This document shows positions 3,140-15,993 of a DNA stretch of 20,218 bases, in pieces. Every line of letters begins with the position of its first letter. Position 1 is the stretch's first letter. A model generated the notes under the pieces. That model was not told where the DNA came from, made no database searches, and worked only from the letters and a program-made list of their open reading frames with translations. Origin of the DNA: a virus; IMG/VR virus record IMGVR_UViG_3300027963_000408, positions 1 to 20,218 of that record. The stretch is one strand, 5' to 3'. A program made the position numbers and the translations under genes.

Positions 3140-3985
3140 ATGGCAACCCTAAATTCGTATATCACAGACGTTCGCAGGCTTCTACACGATGCCAATGGGA
3201 ACTTCTGGTCTAACGATGAGATTACGGATTACGTCAATGATGGGCGTGAAAGGGTAGTACGAGACACTGGTTGCCTGCGTACCCTGCAAATTTCTGCTAC
3301 ACCACTCGCACCAGACGGCACAGCCGCAATTATCTGGTCTGCTGGACTTGTTGTCACCTCAGGACAGTACATATTTTCAAATATATTTATCTACCAAGTC
3401 ACAGTAGGTGGAACGCTGGGGACTACATCCCCTCCGTACCCCGCGTCCGGGACTAATTTCCCCCCGTCAACGGCTTTTACCAACGGCACAGCCAGTTTGC
3501 TGTACGTTCAGAATGCAGAAGTCATCCCGTTTTCGTCGTTACCTAATGGTTCGCAGACTTTGGATGTACTCAACCTGACGATCTACTGGGGGAATTCTAG
3601 GATTCCTCTGCGTTACCTTCCCTGGACGAACTTCAACGCCCAGTTGCGTTATTGGCAGAACTACGTTGGACGGCCCGTGTGCTTCTCAACGTATGGTCAA
3701 TCGCAAATTTACATCTCTCCTATCCCTGACCAGTCCTATAGCATGGAAGTGGATACGGTTATCCTGCCTTCTCCGCTGGTTTTGACCAATCCTACGGTCA
3801 ATGACGCCATCAATGATCCGTACACCGTTCCTGTGGCGTTCTACGCGGCCTACAAGGCAAAGTACAAAGAACAAAGCTACGGAGAATCTGAGATTTTCCT
3901 ACAGCAATACAACCGTCAAGTGCAGAGCGTGTTGAATTCGGTCTTCACGCGCAGGATTCCGGACCCATATAGCAGTCCTTACTAA
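3140..3985 (+). CDS. head-tail adaptor (connector) protein
   Basis: A 281-aa protein whose N-terminus (residues about 5-45) carries YITDVRRLLHDANG, then FWSNDEITDYVNDGRERVV and RDTG. This helical signature is typical of adaptor proteins that dock under the portal in short-tailed phages (T7 gp11 or HK97 gp6-type fold). The middle (about 60-200) is beta-rich with aromatic and Pro residues. The C-terminus has a helix-rich segment (FYAAYKAKYKEQSYGESEIF) followed by a QQYNRQVQSVLN motif, also common in this group. Its role would be to close the head channel and receive the nozzle encoded by the next gene, which begins 1 bp after its stop. The Shine-Dalgarno is weak (GAGGG some 16 bp upstream). The function comes from motif recognition and context. 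Confidence 0.7.
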   Translation: MATLNSYITDVRRLLHDANGNFWSNDEITDYVNDGRERVVRDTGCLRTLQISATPLAPDGTAAIIWSAGLVVTSGQYIFSNIFIYQVTVGGTLGTTSPPYPASGTNFPPSTAFTNGTASLLYVQNAEVIPFSSLPNGSQTLDVLNLTIYWGNSRIPLRYLPWTNFNAQLRYWQNYVGRPVCFSTYGQSQIYISPIPDQSYSMEVDTVILPSPLVLTNPTVNDAINDPYTVPVAFYAAYKAKYKEQSYGESEIFLQQYNRQVQSVLNSVFTRRIPDPYSSPY

Positions 3986-7693: not shown

Positions 7694-8026
7694 ATGGGAA
7701 TTCAAGCCTTTACCCCTATGGGGAACACGATAACCTTTACGGCTACCGCTAGTTCTCCCACAACTTCCGTGCAAGCTGCGTCTACCACTCTTGGTGGTAA
7801 CCAGTACCGCATCATCAACAGCGGTAACGTAACGGTGTTTATGGGGTACGGGCAGGCTAACGCAAGTGCGGTAGCAAACGCAATAGTTGTAACCAGCACT
7901 CAGTCATCTATCCCGTTGCTGTCAGGTACAGACGAGATCCTGACGTTCACCCCTAACGCTTACTTTGCTGGTATAACTAGTAGTGGTAATGCTGTGATAT
8001 ACATCACACCAGGAGATGGGGTCTAA
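7694..8026 (+). CDS. small beta-rich structural protein
   Basis: A 110-aa protein rich in Thr, Ser, Ala and Val with very few charged residues. Strand-like segments (TITFTATAS, YRIINSGNVTVFMGYG, AVIYITPGDGV) suggest a small beta-sandwich. It starts 2 bp after the previous stop with only a weak Shine-Dalgarno, so coupling to the upstream gene is likely. The N-F/Q-x-F-T-P-M-G-N start and the N-S-G-N-x-T-V-F region resemble small phage proteins encoded near fibres or capsid decoration genes. I cannot assign a definite function. Confidence 0.6.
   Translation: MGIQAFTPMGNTITFTATASSPTTSVQAASTTLGGNQYRIINSGNVTVFMGYGQANASAVANAIVVTSTQSSIPLLSGTDEILTFTPNAYFAGITSSGNAVIYITPGDGV
8011..8015 (+). promoter_or_regulatory. 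ribosome binding site deciding the start of the large fibre
   Basis: AGGAG directly abuts the in-frame ATG at 8016, leaving no spacer, and lies 12 bp before the in-frame ATG at 8028. The start at 8028 also falls 1 bp after the upstream stop codon, as in other junctions here, so 8028 is preferred over 8016. Confidence 0.55.
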
Positions 8027-8027
8027 C

Positions 8028-10922
8028 ATGGTTCTCAAGACTGTTTCTACTCTTGGTGGTGGTGGCGGGGGAGGAAGTGGTACTCCTGGGGGCGCTAACA
8101 GCACAATCCAGTTCAACAACGCTGGAGCTTTTGCTGGTTCTGCCAACCTTACTTGGGACGGTGGCAACGTACAGATAGGGTCTAGCGGAATAATCAAGCT
8201 ATCTAACGGTGTTACTAACTACGTTGGATTTAATGCTCCGACAATCATTCCGGCCAATGTTACTTGGACATTGCCGAGTACGGACGGAGCTACGGGTAAT
8301 TTTTTAATTACCAATGGTTCAGGAACTCTTTCTTGGGCTGCTGCAAATCTGACTCCGATTGCTCCGTCAAACTATGCTTTGCCTGTCGTGTCTGGCAACA
8401 CCACGGTAGGTCAAACGCTGTCATCTACGACTGGTGGTTGGAACGGGTATCCAGCGCCAACGTATGCCTATCAATGGGTACGTGGAGTTAGTAATATTGG
8501 TGGAGCAACATCAGCGACCTATCCACTCGTAGACGCTGACTATAACAACACTATCAAAGTTATCGTCACTGCAACTAACTCAGCAGGCAGTGCAAATGCC
8601 ACGTCTAATGCAACCGCAACTATTGCAGGTACGGTTCCCGGTGCTCCTACGATTGGCACTGCGACGGCAGGCAATGCTCAGGCGTCTGTCGCGTTTACCG
8701 CGCCTGCTGTCACTGGCGGTCCGGCTATTACGAGCTACACGGCAACATCTAGCCCCGGTGGTATTACAGGGTCTGCTGCGTCCTCGCCCATTACTGTGTC
8801 TGGTCTGACCAACGGGACGGCGTATACGTTTACTGTTACCGCGACCAACAGCATCGGCACTGGTCCGGCAAGCGCGGCTAGTAACAGCGTTACGCCAACG
8901 GCTGTTGTGCAAGATGCTTCGTTCGCCTACGTTCCATTGTTGCTAGAGACAACTAGCACCAACGGGCAGAACAACCAAGGCACAACGACCACCAACGGGT
9001 TCCTTGACAGCAGCAGCAGCCCTGTCACCATCACCCGCAACGGCACACCGACGCAGGGTTCAATCACTCCGTATTGGCCCGCTGGTCAATGGAGTAACTT
9101 TTTTTCATCTAGTTACTTGAGTGTTGCGGACAGTGCGAGTCTTAGGTTTGGGGCTGCAAACTTCACTATTGAAGCATGGGTGTTTCGTACGGCATCGGGA
9201 GCAACACACACAATTGCTGCCAAAGGCGCGTCAACCCCAACCGGATGGGTTTTACAAGTTAGCTCTGCTGATAAACTTGTTTTTATTGATACGTCAACAA
9301 GCATTACTGGCGCTACCAGTCTTGCGGCAAATACTTGGTATTACGTCGCTGTCGTTCGCGCCGGAACTGGTTCAAACCAAACAACTTTATATGTCAACGG
9401 AGTGTCCGACGGAACAGGTACATCTGCAACCACGTTTAGCCAAACCGACGCAATGCGTATTGGAACGGACAGAAGCGCGGCAAACGGTTTTGCTGGGTAT
9501 ATTTCTAATCTTAGGTTGTCTAATACAAACCTGACAATTTCATCCACACCGACTACTCCACTAACAGCTTCAGGCAGCACAATTTTTTTATCCTGCGGAT
9601 ACAACCGTTTTGTCGATGGTTCATCTTTAACTAGCGCGATCACTATTGGCGCCGGCACCCCCACCGTCCAAGCATTCCAGCCGTTCTCCCCGGCTGCTGC
9701 GTATACTCCTGCGGCGTATGGTGGGAGTGGGCTTTTTAATGGCAGTACGGATTATTTGTCAGAAACAGACCTAACTCCTATAACTTTTGGGACTAACGAC
9801 TTTACTATAGAGTTTTGGAGTCATTTGATTTCAAAACCACAACTTTTTCCCGGCCTGTTTTACATAAGTGGAAACACCTCGGGCTCTACTACGGTACGGA
9901 TGGAGTTATACGCAGGAAATAACGTTGCCGGTGCAACGGCATACAATTTATATGCACCGGGGCTTTTGCTTAATGGCGGCACAATTATATACAACACTTG
10001 GACCCATATTGCTCTTGTTAGGTCTTCAAACACTTTGACTTTATATGTAAACGGCGTAAGTGTTGCAAGCGCCAGCGTAACCGGAGTTTCTTTTGGCGGC
10101 ACGGGGACTGGTCTGAAGTTAATGAGCGACGGCACAAGTGCCGGTTCTGCATATGGTTACATTTCCAATTTCCGAGTAGTCAAAGGCACCGCCGTCTACA
10201 CCGGAGCATTCACTCCACCTACGCTTGCACCGCTAACAACAGCAGGCTCAACCAGCGCAGCAAGTTACTCAAACACCACCAACGTCAATACAAGTTTTGC
10301 AGCCGCAAACACTTCTCTCCTGCTCAACATGACCAACGCAGGAATCTACGACGCCGCCGTGCAGAACGACATGATTACAGTTGGTGATGCTCAGTCTAGT
10401 ACCACGCAAAAGCAGTGGGGTACAACAAGCATGAAATACGACGGCACTGGCGACTGGCTGACGGCTATTGATAGTACGCAGCTTCAGCTAGGTACTGGTG
10501 ACTTTACGATTGAAGGATGGGTTTACCTTTCTTCGGTCAGTGTTGCTTACGGAATTTTGAGCAAAGGTACTGCAACGACTGGTTGGTCCGCAAACGTAAC
10601 TGTTTTGAACAAACTTCAGTTTAGCTATACGGCGTCTAACTTGACCGGAACAACATCATTGGCAACCGGCACTTGGTATTATTTTGCTATTGTTCGTTTT
10701 GGTAGTGCTACAGGAAACCTAAAGTTATACCTAAACGGTTCTCTTGAAGCTACAAGTGGCGGCGCTGTGACGGATAACTTCAATCAAACCAACATTTTAT
10801 ATGTTGGCGCAGATCGAATCGGAGGAAGCGCACTTAACGGATACCTACAAGATATTCGGATAACTAAAGGTGTGGCTCGCACCGTCACTACAACGCCAAC
10901 CGCAGCATTCCCTGTTCAATAA
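8028..10922 (+). CDS. large modular tail fibre / receptor-binding protein (Ig-like, FN3-like, three LamG-like domains)
   Basis: A 964-aa protein with the modular build of a phage adhesin. Residues about 10-20 are a poly-Gly linker. About 20-110 is a fibre base with STIQFNNAGAFAGSANLTW. About 108-200 is an Ig-like domain (PAPTYAYQWVRG, IKVIVTATNSAGSAN). About 202-290 is a fibronectin type III-like domain (VPGAPTIGTATAGNAQASVAF, GLTNGTAYTFTVTATNS). Three concanavalin/LamG-like domains (Laminin_G_3 type) follow at about 298-500, 508-725 and 756-950. Each has an N/D-F-T-I-E-x-W strand, a TWYY or TWTH segment, a LYVNG or LYLNG turn and a closing GY-I/L-x-N/D-x-R strand. Such domains bind cell-surface glycans or proteins, so this is the best candidate for host recognition. 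No chaperone domain is visible at the C-terminus; the next gene may assist folding. Confidence 0.8.
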   Translation: MVLKTVSTLGGGGGGGSGTPGGANSTIQFNNAGAFAGSANLTWDGGNVQIGSSGIIKLSNGVTNYVGFNAPTIIPANVTWTLPSTDGATGNFLITNGSGTLSWAAANLTPIAPSNYALPVVSGNTTVGQTLSSTTGGWNGYPAPTYAYQWVRGVSNIGGATSATYPLVDADYNNTIKVIVTATNSAGSANATSNATATIAGTVPGAPTIGTATAGNAQASVAFTAPAVTGGPAITSYTATSSPGGITGSAASSPITVSGLTNGTAYTFTVTATNSIGTGPASAASNSVTPTAVVQDASFAYVPLLLETTSTNGQNNQGTTTTNGFLDSSSSPVTITRNGTPTQGSITPYWPAGQWSNFFSSSYLSVADSASLRFGAANFTIEAWVFRTASGATHTIAAKGASTPTGWVLQVSSADKLVFIDTSTSITGATSLAANTWYYVAVVRAGTGSNQTTLYVNGVSDGTGTSATTFSQTDAMRIGTDRSAANGFAGYISNLRLSNTNLTISSTPTTPLTASGSTIFLSCGYNRFVDGSSLTSAITIGAGTPTVQAFQPFSPAAAYTPAAYGGSGLFNGSTDYLSETDLTPITFGTNDFTIEFWSHLISKPQLFPGLFYISGNTSGSTTVRMELYAGNNVAGATAYNLYAPGLLLNGGTIIYNTWTHIALVRSSNTLTLYVNGVSVASASVTGVSFGGTGTGLKLMSDGTSAGSAYGYISNFRVVKGTAVYTGAFTPPTLAPLTTAGSTSAASYSNTTNVNTSFAAANTSLLLNMTNAGIYDAAVQNDMITVGDAQSSTTQKQWGTTSMKYDGTGDWLTAIDSTQLQLGTGDFTIEGWVYLSSVSVAYGILSKGTATTGWSANVTVLNKLQFSYTASNLTGTTSLATGTWYYFAIVRFGSATGNLKLYLNGSLEATSGGAVTDNFNQTNILYVGADRIGGSALNGYLQDIRITKGVARTVTTTPTAAFPVQ

Positions 10923-10931
10923 GGATTAAAA

Positions 10932-11381
10932 ATGTTACTTGCAAACATCAATCTTGTCGTCAAAGACAGCTCAGAGTGGTTTCCGTTCCAGAACTTTGGT
11001 TCTACCGGACCAACGCTTGAGTACATCCGTGAATGCGGGTTCTACCCGATTTGCGTATGGAAGCCCTACGACCACGCAACGGAGAAGTTGGTCCCTGCTG
11101 CTCCTCATTTGATTGACGGTCAAGTTTTTACCGTTGACGTGGCTCCAATGACGGAAGAAGACCTAGCGCAGCGCATCGCAACGCAGTGGCAGGTGATTCG
11201 CACTCAGCGCAACCAGATGCTCAAAGACAGCGACTGGACGCAGGTAGCAGATGCACCAAGCGACAAAACTGCATGGGCCATCTATCGTCAAGCACTGCGT
11301 GACATTACAACAGAAACAGATCCGTTCAAAATCACTTGGCCTAAGTATCCAAGTCAAGTAGATGTACTACCGATTAAATGA
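10932..11381 (+). CDS. phage tail assembly chaperone-like protein
   Basis: A 149-aa protein. Residues about 90-145 contain IRTQRNQMLKDSDWTQVAD, then TAWAIYRQALRDI and TWPKYP. This R-x-x-x-L-x-x-S-D-W-T-Q ... W-x-x-Y-R-Q-x-L-R-D-I pattern is the signature of the phage tail assembly chaperone family (Phage_tail_APC, PF16778), usually encoded directly downstream of a tail fibre. The N-terminal part (about 1-80) is a separate small domain with WFPFQNFGS and ECGFYPIC. In this family the protein is thought to help fold or attach the fibre. Here it follows the 964-aa fibre by 9 bp, with AAGGA upstream of its ATG. The family call is firm; the exact role in this phage is inferred. Confidence 0.75.
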   Translation: MLLANINLVVKDSSEWFPFQNFGSTGPTLEYIRECGFYPICVWKPYDHATEKLVPAAPHLIDGQVFTVDVAPMTEEDLAQRIATQWQVIRTQRNQMLKDSDWTQVADAPSDKTAWAIYRQALRDITTETDPFKITWPKYPSQVDVLPIK

Positions 11382-11897: not shown

Positions 11898-12052
11898 TGG
11901 AAATAGCTGAACTTTTCCTAAAAGCATGGCCTATTCTACTGGGTCTGGTTACGCTCATAATTGTGTTGTCAAAACTAGATTTGAGAGTTGCTGTGCTTGA
12001 AGAAAAGGTCAAGTCTGCGTTTGAAATTATCAACAAGATGAGAGACAAATAA
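11897..12052 (+). CDS. 51-aa small membrane protein
   Basis: A short gene with overlapping stop/start junctions on both sides: its ATG overlaps the upstream TAA (TAATG at 11895-11899) and its own TAA overlaps the ATG at 12052. The product begins MEIAELFLKAWPILLG. It has one hydrophobic span at about residues 7-24 (FLKAWPILLGLVTLIIVL), followed by a charged helix (KLDLRVAVLEEKVKSAFEII) that reads as a short coiled coil. It has the same layout as the two upstream proteins: membrane span plus helix. The coupling on both sides and good amphipathic pattern support it being real despite its length. The function is unknown; a holin-type or membrane accessory role is possible. Confidence 0.65.
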   Translation: MEIAELFLKAWPILLGLVTLIIVLSKLDLRVAVLEEKVKSAFEIINKMRDK

Positions 12053-12390
12053 TGAATATGGACGACCTTTCTTACGTTGAGTTTGGAGACGTAGACGGTC
12101 TGGGAGTAATGTTGTTTGAGAACGGTGTGCAGCACAAGTTGTTCTACGAACAGTTGGCTGACAAAGGTATCTTGATACCTCAGTATCCAATCATAGATGC
12201 AGATCCTGATAACTTAGATGACTGGTTGTTTGTTCACAACCAAGAACATGAAAGACTGGCAAGTCAACTGAACCTAGACAATCCTTTTCAGTTGATCAAC
12301 GCAGATTGGCAAGTAGAAGATGACTTCTATGATTGGATAGGAGTACATTTGAGCATCCATCAACAAATTGTAAAAGTCCTTAACCTGTAA
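12052..12390 (+). CDS. hypothetical protein with internal DW-x-x-x-H duplication
   Basis: A 112-aa acidic protein (pI clearly low) starting in a TAATG overlap; a second Met at residue 3 (12058) is an alternative start. Two segments resemble each other: LDDWLFVHNQEHERLASQLN at about residues 54-74 and FYDWIGVHLSIHQQIVKVLN at about 92-111. Each has D-W-[LI]-x-V-H-x-x-x-H and a following Leu-rich helix, so the protein appears to contain two helical copies. Phage genomes carry small proteins of this DW-x-x-H type near tail and lysis genes, but I know no defined function. The paired His residues could bind metal, though that is speculation. Confidence 0.6.
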   Translation: MNMDDLSYVEFGDVDGLGVMLFENGVQHKLFYEQLADKGILIPQYPIIDADPDNLDDWLFVHNQEHERLASQLNLDNPFQLINADWQVEDDFYDWIGVHLSIHQQIVKVLNL

Positions 12391-12394
12391 TCAT

Positions 12395-13315
12395 ATGTTT
12401 AATCGAAAAATATTTGTTTCTATTGCATCGTATCAAGACGCAGATTTGTGGCATACAGTCAATGATATGGTCATCAATGCTGCAAGGCCATGCAGACTTC
12501 ACATTGCCATTCTTGATCAATCTGACACACCTTCTCCTCCAACAGAAGGTGTTTTGCAACGTGTACACAAAATAACGTACACGAACATCTCTCCAAAATA
12601 TTCTCGTGGTCCGTGTTGGGCTAGACACGTTCTTCAAAGTTACATCAGAGATGAAGAATTTTTTCTTCAGTTAGATGCTCACATGAGGTTTGACGCCGGT
12701 TGGGATGACAAACTCATACGGGAATACGATGATCTGTCTACTAAGAACGTTAGAACAATTTTGAGTTCATACGTTTGTGGGTTTGAAAAGAAAGAAGACG
12801 GGACTATTGAAAAACAAAAGTTTCCGGGTCATGCTCTAGTGTTGAAACCTTTGCCAGACGCAAAGTTGCAAATTCACACGCCAATCATGATTTTCCAAGC
12901 GCATCCAACTCCATCCCAGGTTGCAATACCTGGGTATCACATGGGGGGTGGATTCTTTTTTGGACCTTCGGCTGTTACTCAAGAAGTTCCGTATGACCCG
13001 TGGCTTTACTTTCACGGTGAAGAACAGAATCAAGCTGTCCGTGCTTTCACACACGGGTGGGATATCTATCACCCAGTAGACATCCCGGTCTATCACATCT
13101 ACAAAGATGATCGGAAACGGCATTGGAATGAAGACAAGAACACTGGAAGGTCAGAAGCATGGGTGATGCTTGACCGTGAGTGCAACCAGCGTATGCACCG
13201 TCTTCTGTACGACCGTGCACCTCTGGGTATTTACGGTCTTGGGTTCAAACGTACGTTAGAAGAGTTTGCAGAGTTTTCTGGTATTGACTACATCAACAAA
13301 ACTATCAGAAGATAA
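12395..13315 (+). CDS. Skp1/mucin-type GlcNAc glycosyltransferase (GT60-like)
   Basis: A 306-aa enzyme of the GlcNAc-transferase family PF11397 (CAZy GT60-like). The start reads IFVSIASYQDADLWHTVNDM, the typical nucleotide-sugar-binding entry strand. Residues 71-77 are RGPCWAR. Residues 91-99 are LQLDAHMRF, carrying the D-x-H form of the metal-binding DxD motif that marks this family. GYHMGGGFFFG is at about 180-190, and YFHGEEQNQAVRAFTHGWD with VYHIYK at about 205-237 matches the family's GEE and final His motifs. Known members use UDP-GlcNAc to modify hydroxyproline on Skp1 or threonine in mucin-type proteins. All motifs appear intact, so the enzyme is probably active. It lies 4 bp after the preceding gene and two genes before the Thr/Pro-rich 808-aa protein, its possible substrate; other virion proteins or host glycans are alternatives. 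Confidence 0.85.
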   Translation: MFNRKIFVSIASYQDADLWHTVNDMVINAARPCRLHIAILDQSDTPSPPTEGVLQRVHKITYTNISPKYSRGPCWARHVLQSYIRDEEFFLQLDAHMRFDAGWDDKLIREYDDLSTKNVRTILSSYVCGFEKKEDGTIEKQKFPGHALVLKPLPDAKLQIHTPIMIFQAHPTPSQVAIPGYHMGGGFFFGPSAVTQEVPYDPWLYFHGEEQNQAVRAFTHGWDIYHPVDIPVYHIYKDDRKRHWNEDKNTGRSEAWVMLDRECNQRMHRLLYDRAPLGIYGLGFKRTLEEFAEFSGIDYINKTIRR

Positions 13316-13318
13316 GTT

Positions 13319-13567
13319 ATGGATGAACTCCAACAAGCACAAGCCGCTACCCAACAGTTCATGCAACAGTATGGGTTGGATGCTAGGACTATGGCGTCTA
13401 TAGGTCAGATGGCACAAGAGGCAATACAGGATCAAAGCCTGTATACGCTCCTGCGTGAGCAGTTGTTGGGTAGCCAGATTCTCACAGAGAAAGAGTTGCC
13501 AGAGCAGGTCAATTACATGACCTTGGCTGCGCTTGCGACTATGGGCGCTCTGGCAGGAGGTCAGTAA
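13319..13567 (+). CDS. small Gln-rich hypothetical protein
   Basis: An 82-aa protein, mostly helical, with a Gln/Ala-rich N-terminus (MDELQQAQAATQQFMQQYGL) and a hydrophobic Ala/Gly/Met-rich C-terminus (MTLAALATMGALAGGQ), which is too short and weak for a secure membrane span. The start is 3 bp after the glycosyltransferase stop, and the TAA overlaps the ATG of the mucin-like gene (TAATG). I do not recognise it. Its coupling to the 808-aa gene suggests the two products function together, for example as a chaperone or co-packaged partner. Confidence 0.6.
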   Translation: MDELQQAQAATQQFMQQYGLDARTMASIGQMAQEAIQDQSLYTLLREQLLGSQILTEKELPEQVNYMTLAALATMGALAGGQ

Positions 13568-15993
13568 TGGCTAAACTAGTAGTAGCTCCAGGGGAAGAAG
13601 ACTTTCTTGAGCAACAAACTCTTGCACAAGGTCCTGGTTTAGGTTCGACCACGCTAGAGGAATCCCAACGCCAACAAGCGTATAGAGAGGCACACCCAGA
13701 GTTATATGCGTACCCGCCTATAGACGCTGACGGCGGGTTTGGTTTTGGGCAGTTTTTTGGGGCGGTATTAGCAGTTGCAGCCATTACAATTCCAGGTCTT
13801 GGAGCTGCTATTGGATCAGCAATTCTTGGAAGCTCTGCTGCTGCGGTTGGTGCTGCGGTTGGATTGTCTGCCGCACAAGTAAGCGCGGCTGTTGGTTCCG
13901 CTGCCATATCTGCTGCTACAACCGCTGCACAGGGTGGATCTGCTGAAGATATTCTTAGAAACGCTGCTGGCGCTGGACTATCAACAGGGTTAAATCTTGG
14001 TCTTGGTGGCGGTGTTGGAGGAGCTGTAGTTGGATCTACTGCTGGAACAATTGTCAAAGGTGGGGATGCAGAACAAATTCTGACCAATGCTGTTGCTGCT
14101 GGTGCAGGAGCAGGCGTTTCTGGAGTTTTAGGAACAACTGCTGGTACTGCTGTCAGAACTCTTATTGCAACCGGGAACGTAGAGCAATCATTGTTGTCTG
14201 CTGCGTTGACAGAAATAGGCGCACAAACACAAGGCAAAACCGGAATAGGTGGAGTTGCAACACCAAATGTTGTCCAAACAACTGCTGATGCCACACCCGT
14301 TTCTTCTCCCATAAGTTACGGTGGGTATTCGTATACGGAAATGTCTGATGGGACAGTTCAAAGAATAAATGAAGAAAACGGGAAAACTGCTGTCATATCT
14401 TCTGATGCTTGGTCGCAAATAAAAGAAGGGATAGAGCCTTCCGTTCTTGCAGGCCAAACTTCAGCAGGAACTCTCGAGCCTGTTACTGTTGTTGGGTCAA
14501 CAACTTTATTAGATACAACTTATAATTTGTTGTCTAACGGTGGCGCTGAATATATTGATGACAAAGGAACAAAAAGAACTCTGTCTCCTCAAGAATGGGC
14601 AATAGAGCAAAACCAGTTAGGAGGCACTGCCGCTCCTACTCTTGCTCCGGTAAGTGTCACTGCGACTACTTTACCTCCATCGTTAGACACTCAAATATTG
14701 AGTTTGATGAATGCGACAGAGGCTCCAACTTTATTTGTTGGTACAGTTGCACCAACTTTGCCGCCAGTAACGGTATCAGCAACTACCTTGCCTCCATCAA
14801 TAGATACTCAAATACTGAGTTTGATGAATGCAACGGAAGCGCCAACTTTATTTCTTGGTACGGTTGCACCAACTTTGCCGCCAGTAACGGTATCACCAAC
14901 CACTCTGCCTCCGTCGATAGATGATCAAGTTCTAAATTTAATTTCTCCAACAGAAGCACCAACCCTTCCCCCCGTAGCAGTTACCGCAACCACTGAGTTA
15001 CCTACTCTTTCACCGACATTGCCGGTTCCTACGTTGCCTGTGGTAACGATAGCAGCAACTTCAGAATTGCCCACATTGCCTCCGTGGTGGGATCAAATGA
15101 CCGCTGGTCCTACGTTGCCTATTGTAACAGTAGAAGAAACTACTTTATCTGTAACACTAGGGCCAACGCTCCCTGTTGTAACAATTTCTGCTACAACAGA
15201 AACTCCCACTTTTGGACCAACACTTCCTCCTGTGACAATCTCTGCCACGACTTTGCCGCCGTGGTGGGATCAGATGACTGCTGGTCCGACTCTTCCTCCG
15301 GTAACAATATCTGCAACTACAGAATTGCCTACTTTAGGGCCTACGTTACCGCCTGTCACGATATCAGCAACCACAGAATTACCGACTCTTGGACCGACTC
15401 TACCGCCGGTAACCATCTCGGCTACTACTGAATTACCTACGCTTGGTCCCACTCTACCGCCGGTAACTATTACTGCTACAACGTTACCTCCTTGGTGGGA
15501 TCAAATAACACTTCCTCCAGTAACAATATCTGAGACTACGGATATTCCTACACTTGGACCAACTTTACCACCTGTAACAATCACGGCAACTACGGATATC
15601 CCTACTCTGCCGCCAGTAACGATTTCCCCGACAACAGAAATACCTACGTTACCTCCGGTTACCATTGTTCCAACCACGGAACCACCTACTTTACCTCCAA
15701 CGTTGCCACCGGAGACAACACCTCCTGTTACTACTTTACCTCCCGTTACGACTGCACCTCCAACAATTAAAACAACAAAAGAACCAACTTATCCGGTTGT
15801 CATAAGTGTTACTCCTCCACCTCGACCTCGTGCACCTAGTACAATTACCGGTGCAAGTCCGGCCAGATTACTGGCAGACGCTCTGGCGGCGTACAGGCCA
15901 GCGGGTGCTATAGAAGGTGAAGAGTCTGGAAAAGAAAGGCAAAATGTTTGGAATGAAAAATCACTGCGTCTCAAAGACGCTCTGGGGTTGTAA
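13567..15993 (+). CDS. mucin-like Thr/Pro-repeat virion protein
   Basis: An 808-aa protein with four zones. Residues 1-60 are a soluble N-terminal part. Residues about 61-225 are Gly/Ala-rich and hydrophobic, with three spaced copies of a G-[GT]-[SDN]-x-E-[DQ]-x-L motif (about 133, 165, 202), as seen in phage internal or membrane-active proteins. Residues about 230-355 form a small mixed domain (YGGYSYTEMSDGTVQRINEE). Residues 357-745 are a Thr/Pro-rich array built of TLPPVTISATTELPTLGP-like units with three PPWWDQ inserts and two 39-residue units. A charged C-terminal helix region (about 762-808) ends the protein. The array has no Cys and almost no Lys or Arg until residue 735, like eukaryotic mucin repeats. 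It would make an extended rod, perhaps O-glycosylated. Its neighbours point to a virion or ejected protein; function is not known. Confidence 0.7.
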   Translation: MAKLVVAPGEEDFLEQQTLAQGPGLGSTTLEESQRQQAYREAHPELYAYPPIDADGGFGFGQFFGAVLAVAAITIPGLGAAIGSAILGSSAAAVGAAVGLSAAQVSAAVGSAAISAATTAAQGGSAEDILRNAAGAGLSTGLNLGLGGGVGGAVVGSTAGTIVKGGDAEQILTNAVAAGAGAGVSGVLGTTAGTAVRTLIATGNVEQSLLSAALTEIGAQTQGKTGIGGVATPNVVQTTADATPVSSPISYGGYSYTEMSDGTVQRINEENGKTAVISSDAWSQIKEGIEPSVLAGQTSAGTLEPVTVVGSTTLLDTTYNLLSNGGAEYIDDKGTKRTLSPQEWAIEQNQLGGTAAPTLAPVSVTATTLPPSLDTQILSLMNATEAPTLFVGTVAPTLPPVTVSATTLPPSIDTQILSLMNATEAPTLFLGTVAPTLPPVTVSPTTLPPSIDDQVLNLISPTEAPTLPPVAVTATTELPTLSPTLPVPTLPVVTIAATSELPTLPPWWDQMTAGPTLPIVTVEETTLSVTLGPTLPVVTISATTETPTFGPTLPPVTISATTLPPWWDQMTAGPTLPPVTISATTELPTLGPTLPPVTISATTELPTLGPTLPPVTISATTELPTLGPTLPPVTITATTLPPWWDQITLPPVTISETTDIPTLGPTLPPVTITATTDIPTLPPVTISPTTEIPTLPPVTIVPTTEPPTLPPTLPPETTPPVTTLPPVTTAPPTIKTTKEPTYPVVISVTPPPRPRAPSTITGASPARLLADALAAYRPAGAIEGEESGKERQNVWNEKSLRLKDALGL
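13963..14200 (+). repeat. three Gly/Ala-rich repeats with E-[DQ]-x-L motif
   Basis: Within the mucin-like protein, GGSAEDILRNAAGAGLS, GGDAEQILTNAVAAGAGAG and TGNVEQSLLSAALTEIGA are three related units spaced by about 32 and 38 residues. They alternate a polar helix start with a small-residue glycine zipper-like stretch. The DNA of the copies is diverged, so the repeat is old. Glycine zippers of this type suit membrane insertion or tight helix packing. Confidence 0.6.
14635..15801 (+). repeat. Thr/Pro-rich mucin-like tandem repeat array
   Basis: About 390 residues of imperfect tandem repeats built on L-P-P-V-T-[IV]-[ST]-x-T-T. It includes three consecutive identical 18-residue units at 15289-15342, 15343-15396 and 15397-15450, three PPWWDQ inserts (residues 505, 564 and 641) and two long 39-residue units near the start. 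Thr and Pro dominate, and charged residues are rare. This is a protein-level repeat array in one open frame, not a CRISPR or a DNA satellite. Confidence 0.85.
14746..14895 (+). repeat. 33-bp exact direct repeats marking a 117-bp (39-aa) duplication
   Basis: The 33 bases at 14746-14778 are repeated exactly at 14863-14895, spaced 117 bp apart and in frame. The intervening unit (containing LPPSIDTQILSLMNATEAP) also resembles the preceding one closely. Exact identity across synonymous sites points to a recent duplication, unlike the older codon-diverged units downstream. Confidence 0.75.

Follow-up and report, generated by a model that had tools for sequence, protein, structure and literature searches.

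The GT60 enzymes are the pp-alpha-GlcNAcT family, which starts the mucin-type O-glycans of protists without the ricin-like domain of GT27, as set out in passages of PMC8724618. In those passages the family is placed in protists and in the last eukaryotic common ancestor, and phages are not mentioned. Glycosylation of phage particles is known from the mycobacteriophages Che8, Corndog, and Myrna, whose own glycosyltransferases modify virion proteins and shield the particles from antibodies, according to the parts of PMC12363180 and PMC12619734 that deal with them and that cite Freeman 2023. Here we describe a locus of the IMG/VR virus record IMGVR_UViG_3300027963_000408 in which a GT60-type glycosyltransferase gene lies close to a gene, g18, for a protein with a long array of threonine/proline (Thr/Pro) repeats. 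The window, by which we mean the whole stretch of DNA analyzed, is a linear record of 20,218 bp that carries late structural genes, all on one strand. The enzyme probably attaches N-acetylhexosamine (HexNAc) to Thr residues of the g18 array, and may in this way make a mucin-like protein of the particle. The features of the locus are as follows (aa, amino acids; pLDDT, predicted local distance difference test).

12052..12390, + strand: g15, conserved protein of 112 aa, flank of the variable insertion point (71-98% identity, 80 relatives)
12395..13315, + strand: GT60-type (PF11397) glycosyltransferase of 306 aa with no extra domain
12674..12682, + strand: D94-x-H96 (DxH) of the enzyme, likely metal-binding motif, D94 and H96 invariant
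13013..13024, + strand: H207-G208-E209-E210 motif of the enzyme (G208, E209, and E210 in 49/49 sequences, H207 in 46/49)
13094..13096, + strand: H234 of the enzyme, candidate third metal ligand, invariant (49/49)
13319..13567, + strand: g17, conserved small protein of 82 aa between the enzyme and g18 (mostly 69-94% identity, whether or not a relative carries the enzyme)
13567..15993, + strand: g18, modular protein of 808 aa in the late structural run, proposed substrate, with counterparts at this locus in dozens of phage contigs
13744..14226, + strand: conserved Ala/Gly-rich hydrophobic helical region of g18, about residues 60-220 (from the N-terminal alignment and the model)
14302..14619, + strand: duplicated small beta/alpha domain of g18, the copies at about residues 246-290 and 306-351 (AlphaFold2 pLDDT mostly 82-93)
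14620..15765, + strand: mucin-like Thr/Pro array of g18, residues 352-733
15862..15990, + strand: conserved C-terminal tail of g18 (ARLLADAL...LRLKDALGL), retained in relatives whatever the composition of their linker

The enzyme, g17, and g18 form a same-strand run with gaps of at most 4 bp, g17 and g18 sharing one base. A preliminary description of this DNA had reported an intact glycosyltransferase with LQLDAHMRF and GEE motifs, two genes upstream of an 808-aa protein whose Thr/Pro repeats are nearly free of Lys and Arg. These claims were borne out by the open reading frame (ORF), the PF11397 match and the motif positions (residues 91-99 and 208-210, respectively), by the place of g17 between the two genes, and by an array of 382 residues with no Lys or Arg. 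The match to Pfam PF11397 has E=1e-53 and 183.5 bits (cut-off 21), with residues 57-299 as the better of two matching stretches, and PHROG 24687, a glycosyltransferase, was matched at 2e-43. Judged by its sequence, the enzyme is a member of the GT60 family. D94, H96, G208, E209, E210, and H234 are all invariant across 49 aligned phage and bacterial relatives. We take D94, H96, and H234 to be a putative metal site by analogy with GT27. Purifying selection on the enzyme is strong (pairwise dN/dS 0.03-0.08).

Searches of the PDB by sequence, with the enzyme or with its profile, gave no significant match. The AlphaFold2 model built from 49 sequences (pLDDT 92, predicted template modelling score 0.92) is closest in fold to polypeptide O-glycosyltransferases. 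With Foldseek, the first 44 PDB matches were polypeptide GalNAc-transferases, the sole exception being human B4GALNT1. With VIA-align, ppGalNAc-Ts took the first 29 places, at Z 19.9-23.4 across about 265 of the 306 residues, and the next best Z was 17.6. The catalytic fold fills the whole 306-aa chain and the C-terminal ricin-like lectin domain of GT27 is absent, for which reason the enzyme is not filed as GT27.

Of the 382 residues in the array, 96 are Thr, 82 Pro, 19 Ser, and 24 Asp/Glu, and none is Lys or Arg. Thr, Pro, and Ser together make up 52% of it, in line with the compositional definition of a mucin domain (long repeats rich in P/T/S and poor in charge), and Pro stands at position +3 of 59 of the 96 Thr. 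The underlying DNA holds tandem repeats of 117 nt and 54 nt. The array is no chance product, as comparable ones occur in relatives from five other contigs and purifying selection on the enzyme is strong. Outside the array, the Ala/Gly-rich region is the best-conserved part of the N-terminal alignment and was modelled as helical with low confidence; the model of the N-terminus (pLDDT 60) had no significant PDB match. The beta/alpha domain has a confident fold and no family match, and g18 itself matched nothing in Pfam, PHROGs, NCBIfam, or the phage collection. To judge by the surrounding genes and by its hydrophobic helical part, g18 may be a minor structural or ejected protein. Among relatives, the copy number of the beta/alpha domain (about 45-60 residues) that precedes the array varies, as in the g18 of L002, L003, and L004. 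The linker is hypervariable, being Thr-Pro, Ser-Pro, Gly-Thr, Ala/Lys-rich, or Pro-Ala in L078, L081, L086, L092, L107, and L111, all of which end in a similar conserved C-terminal segment.

Close relatives provide a natural experiment. Dozens of related contigs were retrieved using g15, g17, g18, and the enzyme as queries. The enzyme lies between g15 and g17 in six of them (window included), whereas about 30 close relatives lack it there and have g17 directly after g15; in those non-carrier contigs that were sampled, no PF11397 gene turned up at any other place. Carriers have long TLPPVTISATT-type g18 arrays poor in Lys/Arg, while the linkers of non-carriers are mostly of Pro/Glu/Val/Lys and usually more charged. 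Thr accounts for 16-23% of the g18 linker with the enzyme versus 7-18% without it (Mann-Whitney p=2e-4). On trees of g15+g17 and of g06+g07, the distribution of the enzyme requires four changes, at least three of them on well-supported branches, and in independent pairs either the Thr-rich array accompanies the enzyme or there is no difference, never the reverse. When 58 g18 proteins were ranked by mucin-likeness, the top seven were exactly the seven with an adjacent glycosyltransferase (Fisher 6e-6): five with GT60 and two with a GT2-family enzyme, the truncated L004 having been left out. The latter two belong to farther relatives, L104 and L111, which have no GT60 and whose g18 carries long arrays of TTAPT or SPSP/PTPT.

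L104:1941-2684: GT2-family gene (PF00535) just upstream of g15
L111:4261-5004: GT2-family gene (PF00535) just upstream of g15

These two genes are 98.8% identical, and L104 and L111 therefore count as one event. Their position is near that of the GT60 gene in the window.

The pairing also recurs in unrelated phages. A profile search of the viral collection gave at least 581 related stretches, the best 80 of which were kept and dereplicated at 70% identity to 32 distant representatives, examined over at most about 21 kb each. A Thr/Pro-repeat ORF occurs in 16 of the 32, immediately upstream on the same strand in nine. Such an ORF lies within one gene of the enzyme in 11 of 32 (2.9 expected) and within two genes in 14 of 32 (5.6 expected under random placement, with a maximum of 13 in 5,000 draws), with p<=0.0002. 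Far from the enzyme on the same contigs, the frequency of these ORFs is about three times lower, and only 3% of genes there are that close to one. The conserved linkage on which the preliminary description had made its proposal depend was thus found, although it is not universal.

We infer, as the preliminary description did, that the enzyme glycosylates the array, an idea to which linkage, predicted fold, and Thr covariation now lend support. The enzyme would be a cytosolic polypeptide O-HexNAc-transferase of GT60 type, with a GT27 fold minus the lectin domain. Late in infection it would draw its sugar from the nucleotide-sugar pool of the host, most likely UDP-N-acetylglucosamine (UDP-GlcNAc); that the donor sugar is probably GlcNAc follows from the GT60 assignment. 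UDP-GlcNAc is made by every walled bacterium and is present in the cytosol, and a soluble phage enzyme would therefore need no partner. Single alpha-linked HexNAc residues would be added to threonines of the disordered array, giving a structural or ejected particle protein one stiff, mucin-like segment with dense glycosylation. Physically, mucin-type glycosylation is expected to produce an extended spacer that resists proteases; a role of the glycosylated array as a shield is speculation.

Several observations weigh against this proposal. A sign test on the independent contrasts goes in the expected direction, but with n=3 they are too few for significance, and the thresholds that define an array were picked after the data had been seen. 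Six of the remaining 51 g18 proteins (L099, L086, L110, L078, L063, and L029) have arrays of 118-207 residues with no enzyme detected, and arrays therefore do not strictly require the enzyme. The contigs of L099, L086, L110, and L078, which have moderate Thr/Ser-Pro arrays and no detected glycosyltransferase, are fragments. Half of the 32 dereplicated distant carriers have no Thr/Pro ORF nearby, and so substrates of more than one kind are probable for this enzyme family. In XacN1 the enzyme adjoins a carbamoyltransferase, and no strong array lies within 12 kb of it. A reverse search from TPTPTPTPTP-coding DNA is suggestive only, with the enzyme at five of 56 loci versus none of 46 Pro/Ala-repeat loci (p=0.06); the latter served as control because a random-pattern scan gave only four loci.

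Part of this evidence would suit an enzyme that modifies a surface polymer of the host (lipopolysaccharide, capsule, or teichoic acid), leading to superinfection exclusion or serotype change, its proximity to g18 being incidental. Phage glycosyltransferases often act in this way, some distant family members stand away from any Thr/Pro ORF, and the XacN1 copy, besides its carbamoyltransferase neighbor, is near a GT9 gene. We nevertheless regard this explanation as unlikely for the window, where the gene sits inside the late structural run, the closest folds are those of polypeptide transferases, and the enzyme covaries with the Thr content of g18 and, in unrelated phages, with Thr/Pro ORFs. The target might instead be another virion protein, such as the laminin-G/fn3 fibre g11, with the g18 array a plain disordered spacer. 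Glycosylation of the capsid and tail tube is known in phages (parts of PMC12363180), and g11 is Thr-rich (about 15%) in all members. Yet among the virion genes tested, none but g18 is richer in Thr or in mucin-like sequence when the enzyme is present: the Thr content of g06, g07, g08, g11, g12, and g17 does not differ between carriers and non-carriers, and that of g19 is slightly lower in carriers, which makes this alternative rather improbable.

The covariation itself could arise by hitchhiking, if the enzyme and a Thr-rich g18 allele travelled together as neighbors with no substrate relation between them. Only one small gene separates the two, co-transfer by recombination inflates the association within the group, the g15+g17 and g06+g07 trees differ as recombination predicts, and the independent contrasts are few. 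We consider it quite improbable all the same, as the pairing recurs with other Thr/Pro proteins in distant phages and an unrelated GT2-family enzyme is found upstream of g15 in L104 and L111. As for the acceptor, the enzyme that modifies hydroxyproline in Dictyostelium Skp1 belongs to GT60 (as described in part of PMC6939170), and the array is rich in Pro. Non-carriers, however, remain rich in Pro, and it is Thr that follows the enzyme. Prolyl-hydroxylase-like genes (PF13640) were seen in two of 50 distant enzyme-bearing contigs, a count made on fragments that leaves host hydroxylases aside and for which other oxygenase families were not searched; the contig of the window was covered in part, by ORFs and Pfam. 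This near absence favors threonine, which is the likely acceptor; hydroxyproline is very improbable.

Upstream of the locus, the window holds the following genes, on the same strand as the rest.

989-1999: major head protein (PHROG 9953)
3140-3985: head-tail protein, SU10-adaptor-like
8016-10922: fibre-type protein with laminin-G/fn3 domains
10932-11381: tail-fibre-assembly-like ORF

After the tail-fibre-assembly-like ORF come small genes, g15, the glycosyltransferase, g17, g18, and further proteins with no assigned function. Known phages had no DNA similarity to the window, and the nearest annotated relatives, judged by the capsid, are two Manatee Spring metagenome phages.

The closest bacterial homologues of the enzyme are from Pseudacidovorax (50%), Azohydromonas (49%), and Ramlibacter (about 40%). 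Mostly they have no Thr/Pro array near the gene, and they therefore do not explain the phage pairing. Elsewhere among bacteria, in L261 (Jiulongibacter; L261:5945-10803), L281, and L284, Thr/Pro/Ser-rich proteins have PF11397 genes beside them or on both sides. The N-termini of these proteins resemble twin-arginine (Tat) signals, judged by eye, which would fit cytosolic glycosylation preceding export in those bacteria. Likewise, Sphingomonas and Caenimonas genomes (L268:4382-7987 and L231:765-5099) have a large Thr/Pro-repeat protein within 100 bp of a PF11397 gene. A carbamoyltransferase stands near a GT60-type gene in XacN1 (L145:11989-15706), in L261:9235-10803, and in five of 50 phage contigs, suggesting that in some phages the added sugar is further decorated.

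We consider a broader proposal about as likely as not: that prokaryotic viruses and a few bacteria run mucin-type O-glycosylation, in which Thr/Ser-Pro repeat proteins have a dedicated polypeptide HexNAc-transferase as partner, and that in one phage lineage, whenever an enzyme of one or the other of two unrelated families was acquired, the linker of a structural protein became a mucin-like array. Descriptions of mucin-type O-glycosylation treat it as a eukaryotic pathway, and a phage initiator with its array would extend the mucin principle to bacterial viruses. If the proposal is true, the pair would be a very simple cytosolic enzyme and substrate, testable in E. coli; it would offer an explanation for Thr/Pro repeat proteins, which many phage genomes encode, and would be relevant to the spread of particles, their adhesion, and their resistance to proteases. 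The enzyme could also serve as a soluble tool for O-HexNAc modification. The preliminary description knew of no phage system of this kind. This stands for the enzyme and the array, as our search of open-licence papers gave no report of PF11397/GT60-type enzymes or mucin-like arrays in phages. It does not stand for virion glycosylation, which is known in mycobacteriophages, so that the present pair is no new category.

Compared with described systems, the phage enzyme shares PF11397, a single catalytic domain, and the lack of a ricin-like domain with the GT60 enzymes of protists, namely Skp1 Gnt1 of Dictyostelium and Toxoplasma and the mucin enzyme of Trypanosoma cruzi (as covered in parts of PMC8724618 and PMC6939170). 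It differs from them, as far as gene content tells, in its place in a late structural run beside a viral array protein, with no prolyl hydroxylase partner seen. The closest solved fold, over the whole chain, is that of the GT27 ppGalNAc-transferases (Z up to 23.4), to which the phage enzyme is about 14-18% identical; unlike them it has no lectin domain, and its donor is probably GlcNAc. Finally, the targets in mycobacteriophages are the capsid and the tail tube, whereas here, comparing the systems by their descriptions, a mucin-type initiator would act on a long Thr/Pro array.

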